Positions 1 through 21,380 of a DNA stretch of 36,490 bases are shown in pieces. The first letter of the stretch is position 1. The number at the start of each line of letters is the position of its first letter. The notes beneath the pieces are model-generated. The model worked only from the letters and a program-made list of their open reading frames with translations, was not told the origin of the DNA and searched no databases. The translations under genes and the position numbers were made by a program. Origin of the DNA: Nitrospirales bacterium (lineage in GTDB: Bacteria > Nitrospirota > Nitrospiria > Nitrospirales > UBA8639); assembly GCA_007570995.1 (NCBI GenBank), contig RKSG01000075.1:1-36490 (forward strand), written 5' to 3'.

Positions 1-23
1 ATTCCTGCGCCCGCAGGAATGAC
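1..23. repeat. REP-like palindrome, copy at window edge
   Basis: The window opens with a perfect inverted repeat, ATTCCTGCG and CGCAGGAAT separated by two bases, followed by GAC. It is the same core seen at 3221, 13131, 16267 and 16520, so it is one more copy of the dispersed family, cut by the window edge. The rest of 24-161 shows no gene or site I can support. Confidence 0.75.
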
Positions 24-5916: not shown

Positions 5917-6469
5917 TCGTGCCCTTCTCGACAAAATGACCCGCAAGATGGACGGGGGGCTTGATCACCTCAAAAAAGAGCTTGCCGGCCTCAGAGGCAG
6001 CCGGGCATCCGTATCACTCCTGGACCACGTGACCGTCACATACTACGGGACACCCACCCCCTTGAAACAAGTGAGCACGATCTCCATCCCGGAAAGCCGG
6101 TCGTTCATGATCCAGCCGTGGGACCCCTCAAGCATTCCAGACATTGAAAAGGCGATTCATGCCTCCGACCTTGGTCTCAATCCGTCTAATGACGGGAAAG
6201 TAATTCGCATTCCCATTCCTGCCCTGAGCGAGGAACGTCGTAAACAACTGGTCAAGATTTGCCGGAAATACGGGGAAGACTCGAAAATCAAGATTCGGGG
6301 CATCCGTCGTGAGACCAATGATGAGCTCAAACGTCTCCACAAGAGCAGCATGCTGACCGAGGACGACGTCCGACGGAACGAGGCGGCCGTCCAGAAAATC
6401 ACGGACAGGAAGATTCAACAGGCCGACGAACTCTTACAGAAAAAGGAAGAAGAAATCCTGGAGATTTGA
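5909..6469 (+). CDS. frr: Ribosome recycling factor
   Basis: A 186-residue RRF, which splits post-termination ribosomes together with EF-G. The start at [10 protein letters not shown] gives the standard family length. It lies inside the last codons of pyrH (eight-base overlap), with GAGG about eleven bases upstream. An in-frame codon at 5876 would add eleven residues not typical of the family. The signature segments [20 protein letters not shown] and [17 protein letters not shown] are intact. Confidence 0.97.
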
Positions 6470-10917: not shown

Positions 10918-12885
10918 TTACAGAAAGGGCATGTCAAAATTCACGCGAAGCCCGCCGAAGACCGACCGTCCTGGCGTTCCAAAATTCAACACTTCCTCAT
11001 ATTCTTCATCCAACAGATTATCCACACGAACGTAGGCCTGAACCTGCCTGGAAATGTCATAGGTCGCTGCCAGGCCAAACACCGTGAATCCATCAGGCCC
11101 CCTCGTATTATTCAGATCATCAAACTGCGAGCCTACGAAACGGAAATCCAGCGTCATAGTCAGGGGAGCAACCGGCTGATACAACACACTGACAGTGGCC
11201 TGATCCGCAGGTCTCCGGATCAACCTCCTGGTCGTGTCCAGGTCACGTGCCAGGGTCACGGTATAACGCCATTGAAGTTCCAGTCGTTTTGTCCAGGGAC
11301 GATCCCGCATCACCACCACATCGGCCGACAATTCCCATCCCTGGGATTTGGCGGACGCGGCATTGGCAGGACAAAAATTGGGGCCGTACGTCCCGGTTCC
11401 ACATATCGCTGCACTCCGAATCGTCTGAATGAGCTGGCGATACCGATTCCAGAAGTAGCCTGCACCAATAGTCACTCGTTCATCAAAAAAGCTCTGGTCA
11501 ACGCCCACGTCGAAACTCCGGCTTTTTTCCGGCCGCAAATCAGGATTGCCAAAGTCAGGGAAAAACAATTCGTTGATGTTTGGTGCCCGAAATCCTGTCG
11601 CATAACTGCTGCGAATTTTCGCCTCGCCAAAGACAGTGGAGAACACATACCCTCCGGTCACGCGATACGTGGTCGCATTGCCAAAGGTATTGAAGGCATC
11701 ATGCCGCAGCCCTGCCGTGGCAAAGACGCGATCCCACAGGTTGAATTGTATCTGACCGAAGCCGGCATGGGACGCATTGATCTTCGCTGGCGAAGACGTC
11801 TGCTGTGCGTCACGAAACTGATAGCCCACCATCAGCGTGACGTACCGGTTGAGTCGGAAGTCATGTTGACTCTCGACCCTGTTTGTCAGCTCACGGCCCT
11901 CACTCGGGCTTCCAAAGGGTACCCCCACCACACCAGTTTGCGTATTGCGCTGCAACGTGCCCGGATGGTTCACGGAGGTGGACTGGGCACGAGACAGCGT
12001 CAGCACATGGGTCCACCAGCTGGTCAGCGGTTGCCGCCATGTGCCGCTGAACACAAAACGTCGGGTGTCCGTTTTGGCCTTATACACGTCGGCCGGGCCA
12101 AAAGAGTTGTCAATATTCACCGAACCATTCGACCACCTGACCGTAAAGTCGAACCGGCCATCGGCGGGAAGGGCCGTGCCAATCCTGCCCGAACCCTGCC
12201 AGTTCCGGTACGAATCGCGTTCGGAAGCCCCTCTTCGATAATTAATCGCGGAAATGTTCGAGGTATCCCAGCGGGAGAGTACGAGAGAAAAATCAACCTG
12301 GCCCTTCTGCCCGGACAGGCTCCCCCCTTCCCGTATCGTGTTAAAGGCTCCGTATTCAAAAAACCCACCCACCTTCGGCCGCCCGTAGCCTCGTTTCGTG
12401 GTAATGGAAATGACACCACCCATCGCGTCTGAGCCCCATACGGTACTCTGTGCCCCCCGAACGATTTCAATTTTGGCAATGTTGTCCACCGTTAAATCGC
12501 TGAAGTCAAAAATCCCCCCGCGCGCGTTGTTCACAATGGCACCATCAATCAGGACCAGCGTCTGACTGGAACTCCCGCCCCGGATCCGCACCGTGGCGAG
12601 CCCGCCCGGGCCGCCGTTCTGCGTGACCACCATGCCCTGCGACAACCGCAGTGCTTCCACCACCGTCTTGATCTGTCTGCGTTCCAGGTCTTCCGCGGTC
12701 CACACTTCGACCGCACTGGTGGTCTTGCGAAGGGGAACCTCGGTTTTGGTGGCGCTCACGACCACCTGTTCCAGTGTCTGAACATCCGAATCATCGGAAG
12801 ACGCCTGACCGAAGGCCCATGACGGGAACAACGGAATACCCAGCAGAACAGCCAGACAGACAACCTGTAACGGATGACACAACAT
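10918..12885 (-). CDS. btuB: TonB-dependent outer-membrane receptor, BtuB type (cobalamin)
   Basis: A 655-residue receptor. Signal peptide at residues 1-26 (hydrophobic VVCLAVLLGIPLFPSWAFG), then a TonB-box-like VVVSATKTE, the plug domain (TVRIRGGSSSQTLVLIDGA, IEIVRGAQSTVWGSDAMGG) and a beta-barrel ending in FDMPFL. The ATG at 12885 is chosen because GGGGAGG lies six bases upstream and the signal peptide begins there; a longer frame to 12930 would start inside the riboswitch region. The upstream cobalamin riboswitch and the neighbouring btuFCD-like genes support cobalamin as substrate. It imports ligand across the outer membrane using TonB energy; no tonB gene is in the window. Confidence 0.93.
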   Translation of the reverse strand: MLCHPLQVVCLAVLLGIPLFPSWAFGQASSDDSDVQTLEQVVVSATKTEVPLRKTTSAVEVWTAEDLERRQIKTVVEALRLSQGMVVTQNGGPGGLATVRIRGGSSSQTLVLIDGAIVNNARGGIFDFSDLTVDNIAKIEIVRGAQSTVWGSDAMGGVISITTKRGYGRPKVGGFFEYGAFNTIREGGSLSGQKGQVDFSLVLSRWDTSNISAINYRRGASERDSYRNWQGSGRIGTALPADGRFDFTVRWSNGSVNIDNSFGPADVYKAKTDTRRFVFSGTWRQPLTSWWTHVLTLSRAQSTSVNHPGTLQRNTQTGVVGVPFGSPSEGRELTNRVESQHDFRLNRYVTLMVGYQFRDAQQTSSPAKINASHAGFGQIQFNLWDRVFATAGLRHDAFNTFGNATTYRVTGGYVFSTVFGEAKIRSSYATGFRAPNINELFFPDFGNPDLRPEKSRSFDVGVDQSFFDERVTIGAGYFWNRYRQLIQTIRSAAICGTGTYGPNFCPANAASAKSQGWELSADVVVMRDRPWTKRLELQWRYTVTLARDLDTTRRLIRRPADQATVSVLYQPVAPLTMTLDFRFVGSQFDDLNNTRGPDGFTVFGLAATYDISRQVQAYVRVDNLLDEEYEEVLNFGTPGRSVFGGLRVNFDMPFL

Positions 12886-12912: not shown

Positions 12913-12929
12913 TGGGTTGAGAAGTGACA

Positions 12930-13171
12930 ACGGCAGCTGGGTCTCCTGACTTGCGGATCATGGCTCCGCTGCACCTTCCCGGCAGCTCCGCGATCCCGAG
13001 CCATCGGCTCGCGTATCGCGTCGTCGTCCAGTGGTATGCCCGCAGCGTGACTCCCCGCTTACAGTGGCGGCACCGTGATGGAGTTGCACCATCTTCCCCG
13101 ACACATGCGTTTCACACCCCCCACCCCTGGATGCCTGCGTGCGCAGGCATGACGGAGGGGGGGCATGCCGT
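12930..13171 (-). ncRNA. Cobalamin riboswitch controlling btuB
   Basis: Read on the minus strand, the region carries the ordered cobalamin aptamer elements: GGGGAAG followed by GGTGCAACTCC, then CCGCCACTGTAA (around 13060-13072), CACTGG, GGGAAGGTG, and finally CAAGTCAGGAGACC before the P1 3' strand. P1 forms between ACGGCA (complement of 13166-13171) and TGCCGT (complement of 12930-12935). Between P1 and the core lies a C-rich arm, a REP-like palindrome and a G-rich arm, which together would make a long P2 extension. The gene immediately downstream is btuB. Cobalamin binding is expected to lower btuB expression. Confidence 0.93.
13108..13163. repeat. REP-like palindrome inside the btuB riboswitch P2 region
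   Basis: ATGCCTGCG (13131-13139) and CGCAGGCAT (13142-13150) form a perfect palindrome. It is flanked by CGTTTCACACCCCCCACCCC on the left and GACGGAGGGGGGGC on the right, so outer C-rich and G-rich arms can pair as well. The same flank (CGTTTCA, then C-rich) precedes the copy at 16243, which marks the boundary of the repeat unit. Confidence 0.85.
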
Positions 13172-13273: not shown

Positions 13274-14092
13274 TTACACAGGCACCGCGACCCGCGGTGC
13301 ATGAGATCGGGGATGCTGATCCACGATCACTTCGCAGCGATAAACAGGTTCCAGCACATCGGATCGAATCACGTCGGCCGGATGCCCCTGAGCAGCGATT
13401 TCTCCCTGGTGCAGGAGCAGCAGTTGATCGCAACACTGACTGGCCAGATTCAAATCATGAGAGACCATCACCACCGTTAAGCCCTGTTCCCGATTCAGTT
13501 GCCGCAGTTTGCGGGCAATGTCGAGCTGATGGTGGAGATCCAGAAACGCGGTCGGTTCATCCAGGAGCAGCACGTCGGCATCCTGCGTCAACGCCCGCGC
13601 AATCATCGCCCGTTGCCGTTCGCCGCCCGACACGTCCGACATCATGCGATTGGCCAGCGAGGCAATCTCCATGCTGTGCATGGCCCGGGTTGCATGCCGA
13701 ACGTCATCGGCCGCGTCCCACCCCCATCCCGCGAACGGTTGATGAAAAGGAAACCGTCCCATCAGCACCAGTTCGCCCAAGGTGAATGGAAACAGCTGGG
13801 GTGTCTCTTGCGGCACGAACGCGATCCGCCGGGCAAGTGTGGCCGGCGACACTGTCTCGATGTCCTTTCCAAACACGCGAATCTCCCCGGACTCCGGATG
13901 CAACAGCTTCATCAACAATTTGAGCAGGGAGGTTTTTCCTGACCCGTTTGGCCCGATGATACCGACAATGGTGCCGGCCTCGACGGCATACTGAACATGC
14001 CTGAGCGCCCATCGGCAATCCGGCGCATGATCGTACCGGAAAGACAGGCCCCGAACAGAGAACGCGGGGACAGTTGCTGCCGTCTCCGTCAT
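13274..14092 (-). CDS. btuD: ABC transporter ATPase, BtuD/FecE type
   Basis: A 272-residue ATPase with Walker A GPNGSGKTS, Q-loop FVPQE, signature SGGERQRAMIARAL, Walker B VLLLDEPTAFLD and the H-loop VSHD. It energises import by the FecCD/BtuC-type permease encoded immediately upstream. Start and btuC stop overlap as ATGA (14089-14092). The assignment to cobalamin rather than ferric siderophore rests on the riboswitch before the operon and the neighbouring btuB and pduO; sequence alone does not separate the two. The gap after it to the btuB riboswitch (13172-13273) shows only a small hairpin. Confidence 0.92.
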   Translation of the reverse strand: MTETAATVPAFSVRGLSFRYDHAPDCRWALRHVQYAVEAGTIVGIIGPNGSGKTSLLKLLMKLLHPESGEIRVFGKDIETVSPATLARRIAFVPQETPQLFPFTLGELVLMGRFPFHQPFAGWGWDAADDVRHATRAMHSMEIASLANRMMSDVSGGERQRAMIARALTQDADVLLLDEPTAFLDLHHQLDIARKLRQLNREQGLTVVMVSHDLNLASQCCDQLLLLHQGEIAAQGHPADVIRSDVLEPVYRCEVIVDQHPRSHAPRVAVPV

Positions 14093-15210
14093 ACTGCGAC
14101 TCCGGCACGACGTTTCACTAACAGATACATGAAGACAGGCCCCCCGGTGAGAGCCGTCACCACCCCCACCGGCAGTTCCGTCGGCGACAACGCCGTGCGG
14201 GCAATGGTATCGGCCACCATCAGAAACGATCCGCCCACCAGAGCAGACGCCGGCAACAGGAGACGGTGGTCCGCGCCGGCGATCATGCGAACCACATGAG
14301 GCACGACCATGCCGACGAAACCGATGAGACCGGCAAGCGACACGACGGCACCGGTCATCAGGGCTGACACGACAAAGATGAGCTTTTTGACCCGTTCAAC
14401 TTCAACGCCCAACGCCCTCGAGGTTTCCTCGCCCATGGTCAGCACGTTGAGCGAACGAGCCAGCCAGAACAGCACCGTGCCGCCGGCGCCCAGCCACACG
14501 GCAAGCCAGAGCAACGTGGAATACGACGGCGCAACGATCGTGCCCATCAACCACATCATGATTTTGAACGCCTGCGTGGGATCGGCAAGAGACACCACAA
14601 ACATGATCAGCGCCGAAAACAACGCGTTCAGAATCACGCCGGCCAGTAACAGCGTGTGGACCGACAACATGCGATATGTCACGCTGATCCGATACACGAC
14701 CAGAATAGACAACAGGCCTCCGCAAAACGCCCATACCGGAAGCACCGACAGGCCCAGGACCGTTCCGCCGACCCCGAGCAACAGACCCACCGTCGCCCCA
14801 AAGGCCGCCCCGCTGGAAATACCCAGCACATACGGCTCGGCCAGAGGATTTCGCAGAAGCGCCTGCAAGCTTGCCCCCACGACGGCCAGCGAGCTCCCGA
14901 CCAGGAACGCCAGGCCGAGGCGTGGAAGACGAAACTGCAACAGGATGACACTGGACGCACCAACGGATTCGAGTGCGTCACCATCTCCCTGAAGCACCAT
15001 TCCCGCAATCCGCAGGATGGTTCCAACGGCCACCGATTCGGCCCCTACGGCAAGGCACACGACCCCGATGAACAGACTCGACATCGCCAGGCTCGTTACC
15101 CCGATCACCCAGCGCCCCACCGACAGGTGCCTCATGAGACGATCGGACTGTCCCGCCCCGGACCGCGTGCCGGCCGGCCATGTGGAAGCGGGAATGTGCG
15201 TGTTGCTCAC
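14089..15210 (-). CDS. btuC: FecCD-family permease, BtuC type
   Basis: A 373-residue polytopic inner-membrane protein of the iron/cobalamin importer family, with about ten hydrophobic segments. Landmarks are RLPRLGLAFLVGSSLAVVGASLQ, NPLAEPYVLGISSGAAFGA and GFVGMVVPHVVRMIAG, the last being the conserved segment that contacts the ATPase. The GTG start at 15210 is preceded by AGGAGG eight bases upstream, inside the last codons of btuF. The N-terminal 30 residues before the first membrane segment are polar and longer than usual. It forms the channel through which BtuF-delivered ligand passes. Confidence 0.93.
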   Translation of the reverse strand: MSNTHIPASTWPAGTRSGAGQSDRLMRHLSVGRWVIGVTSLAMSSLFIGVVCLAVGAESVAVGTILRIAGMVLQGDGDALESVGASSVILLQFRLPRLGLAFLVGSSLAVVGASLQALLRNPLAEPYVLGISSGAAFGATVGLLLGVGGTVLGLSVLPVWAFCGGLLSILVVYRISVTYRMLSVHTLLLAGVILNALFSALIMFVVSLADPTQAFKIMMWLMGTIVAPSYSTLLWLAVWLGAGGTVLFWLARSLNVLTMGEETSRALGVEVERVKKLIFVVSALMTGAVVSLAGLIGFVGMVVPHVVRMIAGADHRLLLPASALVGGSFLMVADTIARTALSPTELPVGVVTALTGGPVFMYLLVKRRAGVAV

Positions 15211-15213
15211 CGA

Positions 15214-16242
15214 TCAGTCCTCCTGAAAAAGCTCCGGATGAATCAGCCTGGCCAGTGCCGCGAGGCCCTGCACGAGCCGCGGCCCAGGTCTGTTGACGAT
15301 GATCCGGGGTATAAAATGCACCCGGTTATGTTTCACTGCCGTGAGCGTGGACCATTGCGTCCACTGTTCCGTCCCGGACCCGGCGGACGCATCATCGTCC
15401 CGTGGAGGCAACAGAAGAATTTCGGGGTCTTTCTGCAGCACCACCTCCATGCTCAAACGGGGCCAGGCTGTGCCGGCGTCCTTGGCGATATTGTCCGCAC
15501 CGGCCAGCTCAAGAATCTGATGCACAAAACTTCCCCTGGCCACGCTGATAAACGGCCGCTCAGACAACACGTACAGGACACGAGGTCTGGACACGGACCG
15601 GGTCTTCTCGACAATGGCCTGAACCTTCGCACGCATGGCATGGACCATCGCATTGGCTTCCGGAACGCGTCGGAACATCCGTCCCAGCGTCTGCATGTGG
15701 GCATACACATGTTCCAGCGAGGCGGTGTTCATGATGAACAACGGAATTTTCAGGCGCCGTAACGTCTCCAGCGCATCGTTCCGAACCGCATCCACAGCCA
15801 GCACCAGATCCGGCTCAAGGGCCAGGATGGCTTCGATATTCGGGCGCATATCGCCCACCTTCGCCCTGGTCCTGGCCTCCGGCGGATAATCGCACCATTG
15901 CGTCACACCGATGACCGCGTCGCCCGCGCCAATGGCAAACACCATCTCCGTAATGCTGGGCATGAGAGAAATCACACGTGTCGGAGGATCCGACAGGTAC
16001 AGTTTCCGGCCGGTATCATCCACAAACGTCCGCGTGGCCACGTTGGCCATAAAGGGCATCCCTGTCAGAATTCCCTGTTGACGACGTTTCATGATCGAGG
16101 AGTGGTCGGAGAAACCGAACAGAGGGGTACAGGCCAGCAGCACCAGAACGAGACCGGTCACGCCAACGTGAACGGGGTGACACGGCCGCCGCTTCTCACG
16201 CGCATCCCGGCACGGCAGGAACAGCCAACACCCCGCTACCAT
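15214..16242 (-). CDS. btuF: Periplasmic cobalamin-binding protein, BtuF type
   Basis: A 342-residue substrate-binding protein of the Fe/B12 periplasmic class. The mature part opens with RVISLMPSITEMVFAIGAGD and contains VIGVTQWCDYPPEA and RPGPRLVQGLAALARLIHPE, typical of BtuF-like proteins. I place the start at the ATG at 16242, giving a charged n-region and a hydrophobic VGVTGLVLVLLACTPLFGF signal segment. The longer frame to 16377 would translate a REP palindrome and a transcription terminator and is rejected. Its stop is three bases before the btuC GTG. It is the first gene of the btuFCD operon, controlled by the riboswitch at 16442-16722. Confidence 0.9.
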   Translation of the reverse strand: MVAGCWLFLPCRDAREKRRPCHPVHVGVTGLVLVLLACTPLFGFSDHSSIMKRRQQGILTGMPFMANVATRTFVDDTGRKLYLSDPPTRVISLMPSITEMVFAIGAGDAVIGVTQWCDYPPEARTRAKVGDMRPNIEAILALEPDLVLAVDAVRNDALETLRRLKIPLFIMNTASLEHVYAHMQTLGRMFRRVPEANAMVHAMRAKVQAIVEKTRSVSRPRVLYVLSERPFISVARGSFVHQILELAGADNIAKDAGTAWPRLSMEVVLQKDPEILLLPPRDDDASAGSGTEQWTQWSTLTAVKHNRVHFIPRIIVNRPGPRLVQGLAALARLIHPELFQED

Positions 16243-16300
16243 ACGTTTCACGCCCCCCACCCCTGGATTCCTGCGTTCGCAGGAATGACAGAGGGGGGGC
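16243..16300. repeat. REP-like palindrome in the btuF leader
   Basis: ATTCCTGCG (16267-16275) and CGCAGGAAT (16278-16286) with a two-base loop. Its flanks are ACGTTTCACGCCCCCCACCCC and GACAGAGGGGGGGC, the same as for the copy at 13108. It sits between the terminator and the btuF start codon, so every read-through btuF transcript should carry this hairpin just upstream of its start. Confidence 0.85.
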
Positions 16301-16302
16301 AT

Positions 16303-16339
16303 AAAAAAAATCCCCAAGGCCTCAACGACCTTGAGGATT
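16303..16339 (-). terminator. Rho-independent terminator, expression platform of the btuF riboswitch
   Basis: On the minus strand an eleven-pair stem, AATCCTCAAGG with CCTTGGGGATT (one G-U pair), encloses a nine-base loop and is followed by a run of eight T residues (complement of 16303-16310). It lies after the aptamer and before btuF. The bases ACGACCTT (complement of 16387-16394) can pair with AAGGTCGT (complement of 16325-16332) in the stem and loop, giving a mutually exclusive antiterminator. Confidence 0.88.
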
Positions 16340-16441
16340 GCACCGGCAACTTCATCCTCACCCGTTCCCCAGCCCACGAGGGTTCGAAGGTCGTGAATGC
16401 CGTTCCCGTGTCCTCATGCGAACGGCGGAAACGACATTCCA

Positions 16442-16722
16442 GCACGGGTCGGTCTTCTGGCTTCCGGATCCTAACCTACTTCCCACGCCTTCCCATCACA
16501 ACGTTTCATGCCCCCCTGAATTCCTGCGTTCGCAGGAATGCATGCCCCTGGCGCCCCCCTGGATTCCCGCTCAACTCACTGCGGGAATGACGGAGGGGGG
16601 GCTTTTGACCAGGGGACGGATGGGGAGGCATAACCGAATGTGACAGTGACATATGCGGGGTTCGTGTCCGGTTACAGCGGCGGGACCGCGAAGGATTCGC
16701 ACCTTCTTCCCTGTACCCGTGC
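16442..16722 (-). ncRNA. Cobalamin riboswitch controlling btuFCD
   Basis: On the minus strand: P1 5' strand GCACGGGT (complement of 16715-16722), GGGAAG, GGTGCGAATCC (16693-16703), CCCGCCGCTGTAA (16672-16684), CACTG (16644-16648), GGGAAGG (16488-16494), GCCAGAAGACC (16451-16461) and the P1 3' strand ACCCGTGC (16442-16449), an eight-base perfect pair. All canonical elements are present and in order. The segment between CACTG and GGGAAGG is about 150 bases and contains two REP-like palindromes, making this aptamer much longer than usual. A terminator follows before btuF. Confidence 0.93.
16501..16612. repeat. Two REP-like palindromes inside a variable arm of the btuF riboswitch
   Basis: Copy one: ATTCCTGCG (16520-16528) and CGCAGGAAT (16531-16539). 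Copy two: ATTCCCGC (16563-16570) and GCGGGAAT (16581-16588), with CCCCCCTGG before and GACGGAGGGGGGG after it. The first begins with the ACGTTTCA flank seen in other copies. The second has the longer-loop form found in the array at 20942. Confidence 0.85.
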
Positions 16723-16746
16723 CTCTCATTGTTTCAACGAGGGAGG

Positions 16747-16776
16747 AATGTAGGGAAACCCGTCATCCGTTGTCAA
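16747..16776 (-). promoter_or_regulatory. Probable sigma-70 promoter of the btuFCD riboswitch transcript
   Basis: On the minus strand a perfect TTGACA (complement of 16771-16776) is followed after 18 bases by TACATT (complement of 16747-16752), four of six matches to the -10 consensus. Transcription would begin about 20 bases before the riboswitch P1. The remaining gap to the glycosyltransferase gene (16777-16919) shows nothing else. Confidence 0.6.
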
Positions 16777-20907: not shown

Positions 20908-20941
20908 GACCAGTGAACAGGTAAACGTACCGATACATGTA

Positions 20942-21380
20942 TGCCCCTGGCGCCCCCCTGGATTCCCGCTCAACACACTGCGGGAATGACGGAGGAGGCT
21001 TGCCCAAGGAGAACAGTCAGAATGGTACCTCCATTATGCATGCCCCTGCCCCCCCCCTGGATTCCCGCTCAACACACTGCGGGAATGACGGAGGAGGCTT
21101 GCCGGGAATGACGGAGGGGGCTTGCCCAAGGGGAACAGTCAGAATGGTACCTCCATTATGCATGCCCCTGCTGCCCCCCCTGGATTCCCGCTCAACACAC
21201 TGCGGGAATGACGGAGGAGGCTTGCCGGGAATGACGGAGGGGGCTTGACCAAGGGGAACAGTCAGAATGGCACCTCCATTATGCATGCCCCTGCCCCCCC
21301 CTGGATTCCCGCTCAACACACTGCGGGAATGACGGAGGAGGCTTGCCCAAGGAGAACAGTCAGAATGGCACATCCATTGT
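20942..21380. repeat. Four-unit tandem array: REP-like palindrome plus copies of the esterase 3' end
   Basis: Units begin with TGCCCCTG at 20942, 21041, 21163 and 21286, giving lengths of 99, 122, 123 and about 95 bases. Each holds ATTCCCGC and GCGGGAAT around a ten-base loop, GACGGAGGAGGCTT, and a tail that, on the minus strand, reads ATGGAGGTRCCATTCTGA. The two middle units carry an extra 23-24-base duplication of GGGAATGACGGAGG-like sequence. The tail of the fourth unit is the real last codons and stop of the esterase gene. The array fills the whole gap between cobQ and that gene. Confidence 0.9.

Follow-up and report, generated by a model that had tools for sequence, protein, structure and literature searches.

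A cobalamin riboswitch upstream of btuFCD in a Nitrospirales bacterium carries two dispersed palindromes of the REP type in one of its arms while its aptamer remains intact. The window analysed here is a single contig of 36,490 nucleotides (RKSG01000075.1) from a 1.98-Mb assembly (GCA_007570995.1; 186 contigs, 90% complete). The insertion is recent, insertions into the same arm recur across the Nitrospirota and are restricted to that site within the modelled part of the aptamer, and in the cases tested the repeats match the pool of their own lineage. The explanation that we consider highly probable is that dispersed palindromes have inserted into a loop of a functional riboswitch that is indifferent to ligand binding, this permissive arm being revealed by purifying selection elsewhere in the RNA.

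The btuFCD leader matches the cobalamin riboswitch family RF00174 well above the cut-off of 31.5 bits (E 4.9e-17), and the match covers all 189 positions of the model (1-189). It is one of exactly two RF00174 matches in the assembly, both inside the window (Table 1). The score above the gathering threshold, the intact B12 box, the perfect P1 and the terminator-like platform all place it in this family, as does the position of the two riboswitches upstream of genes for B12 transport (btuF-btuC-btuD and btuB). The first-pass annotation had described the core and an eight-base P1 as perfect, and this is borne out by the full-length match and by the P1 pairing; the segment that it singled out, 16442-16722, runs exactly from P1 to P1. 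The 5′ and 3′ cores also align together in RF00174, so the riboswitch is not broken.

Further elements of the leader are shared with relatives, which carry TTGACA and, after it, TACAGT-like elements at the promoter position, and several of which have a similar stem and T-run 3′ of the btuF riboswitch. Anatomically, the btuFCD leader is that of a transcription-attenuation riboswitch and would regulate accordingly. The btuF gene more likely starts at ATG 16242 than at GTG 16377, the start of the longer ORF, because an ORF from 16377 would contain the terminator. Relatives of BtuF place the window in the Nitrospirales (Nitrospirota), the nearest named record being MEX2-MAG7 (67% identity). It is very improbable that the riboswitch is dead and its leader decaying, with the REPs as mere debris: although both leaders carry large insertions and the REP family is expanded in this genome, every core motif is intact at 75.5 bits, as are P1, the B12 box, the promoter and the terminator, and the btuFCD frames downstream are open.

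Table 1. Features of the two cobalamin riboswitch loci in the window
Feature	Position	Strand	Evidence or remark
Sigma-70-like promoter of the btuFCD leader, TTGACA-18-TACATT	16747..16776	-	consensus scan, 10/12 matches
Complete cobalamin (AdoCbl-type) riboswitch of btuFCD	16430..16735	-	RF00174, 75.5 bits
P1, 5′ strand, GCACGGGT	16715..16722	-	8/8 pairs with 16442-16449
Base of invaded arm, 5′ strand, CUGUCACA	16639..16646	-	pairs with UGUGAUGG in the unconstrained whole-leader fold
Loop of 149 nt between CACTG and GGGAAGG	16495..16643	-	two REP palindromes; fold z -6.1 against dinucleotide shuffles
Full-length long-loop REP	16545..16615 (core 16559-16592)	-	same extended unit at other genomic sites
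Second, truncated short-loop REP, ATTCCTGC-GAAC-GCAGGAAT	16511..16540	-	
Base of invaded arm, 3′ strand, UGUGAUGG	16493..16500	-	pairs with CUGUCACA in the unconstrained whole-leader fold
B12 box, AAGCCAGAAGACC	16451..16463	-	conserved among the aligned Nitrospirota riboswitches
P1, 3′ strand, ACCCGTGC	16442..16449	-	8/8 pairs with 16715-16722
Intrinsic terminator, 13-bp stem and T8, presumed expression platform	16303..16339	-	between aptamer and btuF
Third REP, between terminator and btuF start	16244..16299	-	63-nt repeat, 90% identical to the btuB-riboswitch REP
btuF	15214..16242	-	PF01497, 2.8e-31; start predicted
btuC	14089..15210	-	PF01032, 1.7e-88
btuD	13274..14092	-	PF00005, 9e-33
Second cobalamin riboswitch (btuB)	12919..13171 with the upstream P1 strand	-	RF00174, 74 bits (12919-13139)
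btuB-riboswitch REP, between P1 and P3 (Rfam's P2 place)	13109..13163	-	empty site in L153
btuB-type TonB receptor	10918..12885	-	PF00593, 1.4e-44; PF07715, 5.1e-25

The Rfam alignment places a large unaligned insert within the innermost hairpin. As the first-pass annotation had noted, two REP-like palindromes lie there, between CACTG and GGGAAGG. The full-length one has an outer stem CCCCTGG/CCAGGGG around a core of CGTC-ATTCCCGC-10-nt loop-GCGGGAAT-CCA. When the 306-nt RNA is folded without constraints (-134.3 kcal/mol, z -3.7), P1 and the base of the arm are kept and the REPs are stacked on the arm. The third REP puts a G-rich stretch right before the btuF ATG and has TATG at both flanks.

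Close relatives have a short arm at this site. The btuFCD arm of the nearest relative (G006) is 14 nt long (CCACTG-TCACGTTTGGTGAT-GGGAAGG), and the 13 congeners have two riboswitches each, with btuB arms that are mostly 16 nt among those read. Because the congeneric btuF arms read are 13-20 nt, we conclude that the btuFCD insert was acquired recently and by this genome only. Our own covariance model of the riboswitch (R1, described below) misaligns this member owing to the insert, placing only 16587-16725 at 47.8 bits, and the Rfam alignment was used there.

The REP family itself is abundant, with 287 exact copies in the 1.98-Mb assembly against 0 for a reversed control pattern. Thirteen congeners have 7-85 copies, so the family is expanded here. 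Nearly all copies listed have CGTC or TGTC before ATTCCYGC, and the short type has an 8-bp stem starting with AT, a 4-bp loop and a CCA tail (ATTCCTGC-GAAC-GCAGGAAT-CCA); in a longer variant the loop measures 10 nt. The window REPs fit the CGTC-1 super-family in all four of these features (tag, stem, loop and tail), in keeping with which the family is present in high copy number. No RAYT (Y1_Tnp, PF01797) was found in this 90%-complete assembly, which does not agree with the class of GTAG REPs with a RAYT; a RAYT as the mover of these REPs was rejected on the same absence. No enzyme that would move the REPs was identified, and their insertion is deduced from empty sites and copy number. Nor do the REPs belong to the period-7 class described below, as the window arm has no lag-7 peak and this genome has 0 GTGANNN triples.

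Two further features of the family were observed. About four long-loop REP units, each of ~120 nt, are arrayed in tandem at window positions 20938-21350, between a CbiA/CobB-like gene and the next gene. In addition, REP copies are often found at contig starts or ends (window 1-23; contigs C6, C10, C24 and C35), that is, assembly breaks coincide with the repeat.

The btuB riboswitch, which has a P1 of ACGGCA (13166-13171) and TGCCGT (12930-12935), carries its REP elsewhere. This repeat is flanked by GCATG direct repeats (13104-13108 and 13164-13168), and where the window has ACG-GCATG-REP-GCATG-TGTCG, with a 5-bp direct repeat, the leader of G006 reads ACGGCATGTGTCG, an empty site. The repeats therefore occupy different sites in the two riboswitches, as the first-pass annotation had claimed: the CACTG/GGGAAGG loop for btuFCD and the P1-P3 stretch, where Rfam puts P2, for btuB. 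It had also taken the presence of REPs in two riboswitches of one genome as telling, but this coincidence is explained by REP density. The non-coding DNA of the window holds twelve REPs in ~3.4 kb; from the density in this DNA outside the riboswitches, 1.07 REPs are expected in the two native riboswitches, and the probability of at least two is ~0.29. With such a high density, the pairing needs no special cause.

We then turned to the arm in the phylum as a whole. Riboswitches were extracted from 80 Nitrospirota btuF loci, picked by BtuF similarity and mostly from MAGs, together with 40 family stretches; arms were identified first by motif search and then confirmed with R1, a covariance model built from 30 short-arm members, which found 147 Nitrospirota cobalamin riboswitches. 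Within the part modelled by R1, inserts of at least 20 nt are found in this loop in 67/147 riboswitches and elsewhere in 1/147, where the latter count may be low, as the model could miss riboswitches carrying such inserts, and concerns a region whose first position is 14 nt 5′ of the P3 strand, with the P1-P3 junction invaded in the window's btuB riboswitch lying outside it. Long arms are about equally frequent in the two classes (33/69 btuF riboswitches and 33/68 btuB riboswitches). Most of them share a periodic design: lag 7 gives the best autocorrelation in 59 of 66 long arms. Their folds have a median z of -4.5, and 55 are more stable than shuffles by more than 3 sd.

At a lag-7 threshold of 0.45 (0.38 proved too lax, as flanks and control lags were also high), period-7 elements are found in 55/145 riboswitches compared to 9/143 upstream and 5/144 downstream flanks of 230 nt, and control lags of 5, 6, 8 and 9 give only 0-3 elements in the riboswitches. 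Clustering of 65 long arms at 70% identity yields 23 clusters, several of which span btuF and btuB riboswitches; the null maximum for this clustering is 65% identity, the level below which everything merges. In one genome (L076) the btuF and btuB arms are 89% identical despite differing riboswitches, which suggests gene conversion or twin insertion. Period-7 palindromes also occur just 3′ of the btuF-riboswitch terminator in L081 and L093, matching the position of the window's third REP and pointing to a second recurrent leader site, and in L072 an unbroken run of about ten CGTGAAG heptamers lies immediately 5′ of the btuB riboswitch (~6045-6265).

The contrast between riboswitches and flanks might also arise if the repeats favoured hairpin loops or other palindromes, making the arm a mutational hot spot beyond mere tolerance, since period-7 elements are found in 55/145 riboswitches but in only 5-9 of about 144 much longer flanks. 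We regard such targeting as unlikely, as inserts may be purged from the flanks, which include coding DNA, promoters and terminators, and as two REPs, that of the btuB riboswitch and the third one near btuF, are located outside the arm. Other structured RNAs give the same indication: REPs are absent from RNase P RNA (L241 1500-1965, G000:C174:20479-20942), which spans 464 nt where the model has 367, and, in the 272 kb sampled, from tRNAs, 5S and 23S RNA. A tmRNA above the cut-off was not found in the assembly, weak matches coinciding with tRNA-sized stretches. A stronger form of the same idea, in which the arm is a true insertion hot spot for unrelated palindrome families and the swapped resident repeat modulates folding or stability of the leader as a co-opted domain, is in our judgement rather improbable.

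A likely origin of the long arms lies in the dispersed repeats of the genomes that carry them. In N. moscoviensis the same period-7 design is dispersed, mostly in non-coding DNA, with 335 GTGANNN triples against 53 in the control. CGTTANN heptamers number 80 in the L129 genome and 67 in that of its close sister L120, compared to 0-1 in nine others, and the L129 arm is of the CGTTANN type while that of L120 is only 25 nt long. Similarly, TCAGCNN is most abundant (75) in the L072 genome, whose btuF arm is of the TCAGCNN type. In the cases tested, arm type thus follows the dispersed-repeat pool of its own genome.

These pools bear on whether the long arms grew in situ, by slippage and duplication of heptamers, instead of by insertion of dispersed elements. 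The inserts are indeed period-7 arrays, and the related pair L088 and L086 differs by one 7-nt unit. Nonetheless, we give in-situ growth a low probability: the heptamer type of an arm is that of a dispersed pool nearly absent from other genomes, the dispersed copies in N. moscoviensis share the overall design, and the window REPs lack a 7-nt period and have hundreds of matching copies.

Long arms also turn over between species. On a BtuF tree, the long or short state changes at least 17 times for btuF and at least 19 times for btuB, compared to shuffled means of 23.4 and 22.9. This tree was built by a quick method, leaves 21 forks open and represents the species by a single gene, and the counts are blind to gain versus loss. 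The state thus carries little phylogenetic signal. Sister species differ in having a long arm, for example L119 versus L109 and L115, and L120 versus L129.

The first-pass annotation had proposed either repeated insertion into permissive loops or selection for added helices. The former is favoured by empty sites, recurrence and turnover. The latter would mean that an extra helix aids folding, timing or stability of the riboswitch, so that any palindrome supplying it is retained. In line with this, arms fall into two length classes (bimodal, at about 9-37 nt and 63-110 nt) with about half of the species long, and the inserts are more stable than shuffles. In three sets of related inserts, though, compensatory changes are nearly nil (0/37, 0/37 and 2/29 pairs, a comparison of low power), sisters lose or lack the arm freely, the congeners of the window genome have no long arm, and the state shows little phylogenetic signal. 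Selection for a long arm is accordingly improbable. About half of the changed cells in related inserts break a pair and about half preserve pairing, the latter being slightly many, and weak selection for a helix may therefore act; the inserts themselves are probably neutral.

Insertion of dispersed palindromes into a permissive arm suggests the following course of events. Transcription would start at about 16740, after which the aptamer folds, and the terminator would, judging from its anatomy, decide on read-through into btuFCD. Two CGTC-type REPs would have entered the arm that CACTG and GGGAAGG cap, at its terminal loop, where they are predicted to fold as an outward extension without affecting P1, the core or the B12 box. 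Across the Nitrospirota, this loop would have been invaded repeatedly by dispersed palindromes of other kinds, for the most part period-7 hairpins drawn from the pool of the same genome. Other parts of the aptamer hardly ever carry insertions, which are presumably destructive there.

Inserts tolerated by riboswitches and palindromes within RNA genes are already known, and the units of the cyanobacterial STRR sequences are reportedly heptamers. The cobalamin riboswitch RF00174 has been described with 'variable insertions' (Barrick and Breaker 2007, PMC2258182), and the window aptamer resembles such members in its complete core. What differs here is that the insert is identified as belonging to a family of dispersed repeats, for which there are empty sites, turnover and pools that match the lineage. 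The CGTC-1 REP super-family, which includes Neisseria dRS3 and was described without a dedicated transposase (PMC3733652), shares with the window REPs the CGTC tag, the 8-bp stem starting with AT, the 4-bp loop of the short type and the CCA tail. The Nitrospirota, however, are not among the five phyla listed there, and the 10-nt-loop variant with the outer CCCCTGG/CCAGGGG stem is common here.

Dispersed palindromes have been met in other structured RNAs. Rickettsia palindromic elements sit in tmRNA and RNase P RNA according to the review of this work (Ogata 2002, reviewed in PMC2229807), and some of them are CGTC REPs (PMC3733652). As far as the review describes them, they are similar in that the RNA is apparently still functional, and differ in that the host here is a riboswitch of which one arm was invaded independently by many families. 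STRR sequences lie within cyanobacterial RNase P RNA (Vioque 1997, a reference in PMC4748335); as cited there, they are likewise short tandem repeats inside a structured RNA gene, but not palindromic hairpins in a riboswitch. The literature that we searched describes no dispersed repeats within the aptamer of a riboswitch, an absence that is no proof, and their recurrence in one arm from lineage-matched sources appears to be new.

Taken as such, dispersed palindromic repeats are a likely source of the 'variable insertions' of riboswitches, at least in one phylum. Riboswitch finders with a capped arm length will miss such RNAs. A single RNA arm is a recurring safe harbour for dispersed repeats, with nearly half of the Nitrospirota B12 riboswitches filled there. 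With the one site filled in some and empty in others of dozens of species, the arms form a natural library with which tolerance, targeting and co-option can be addressed.
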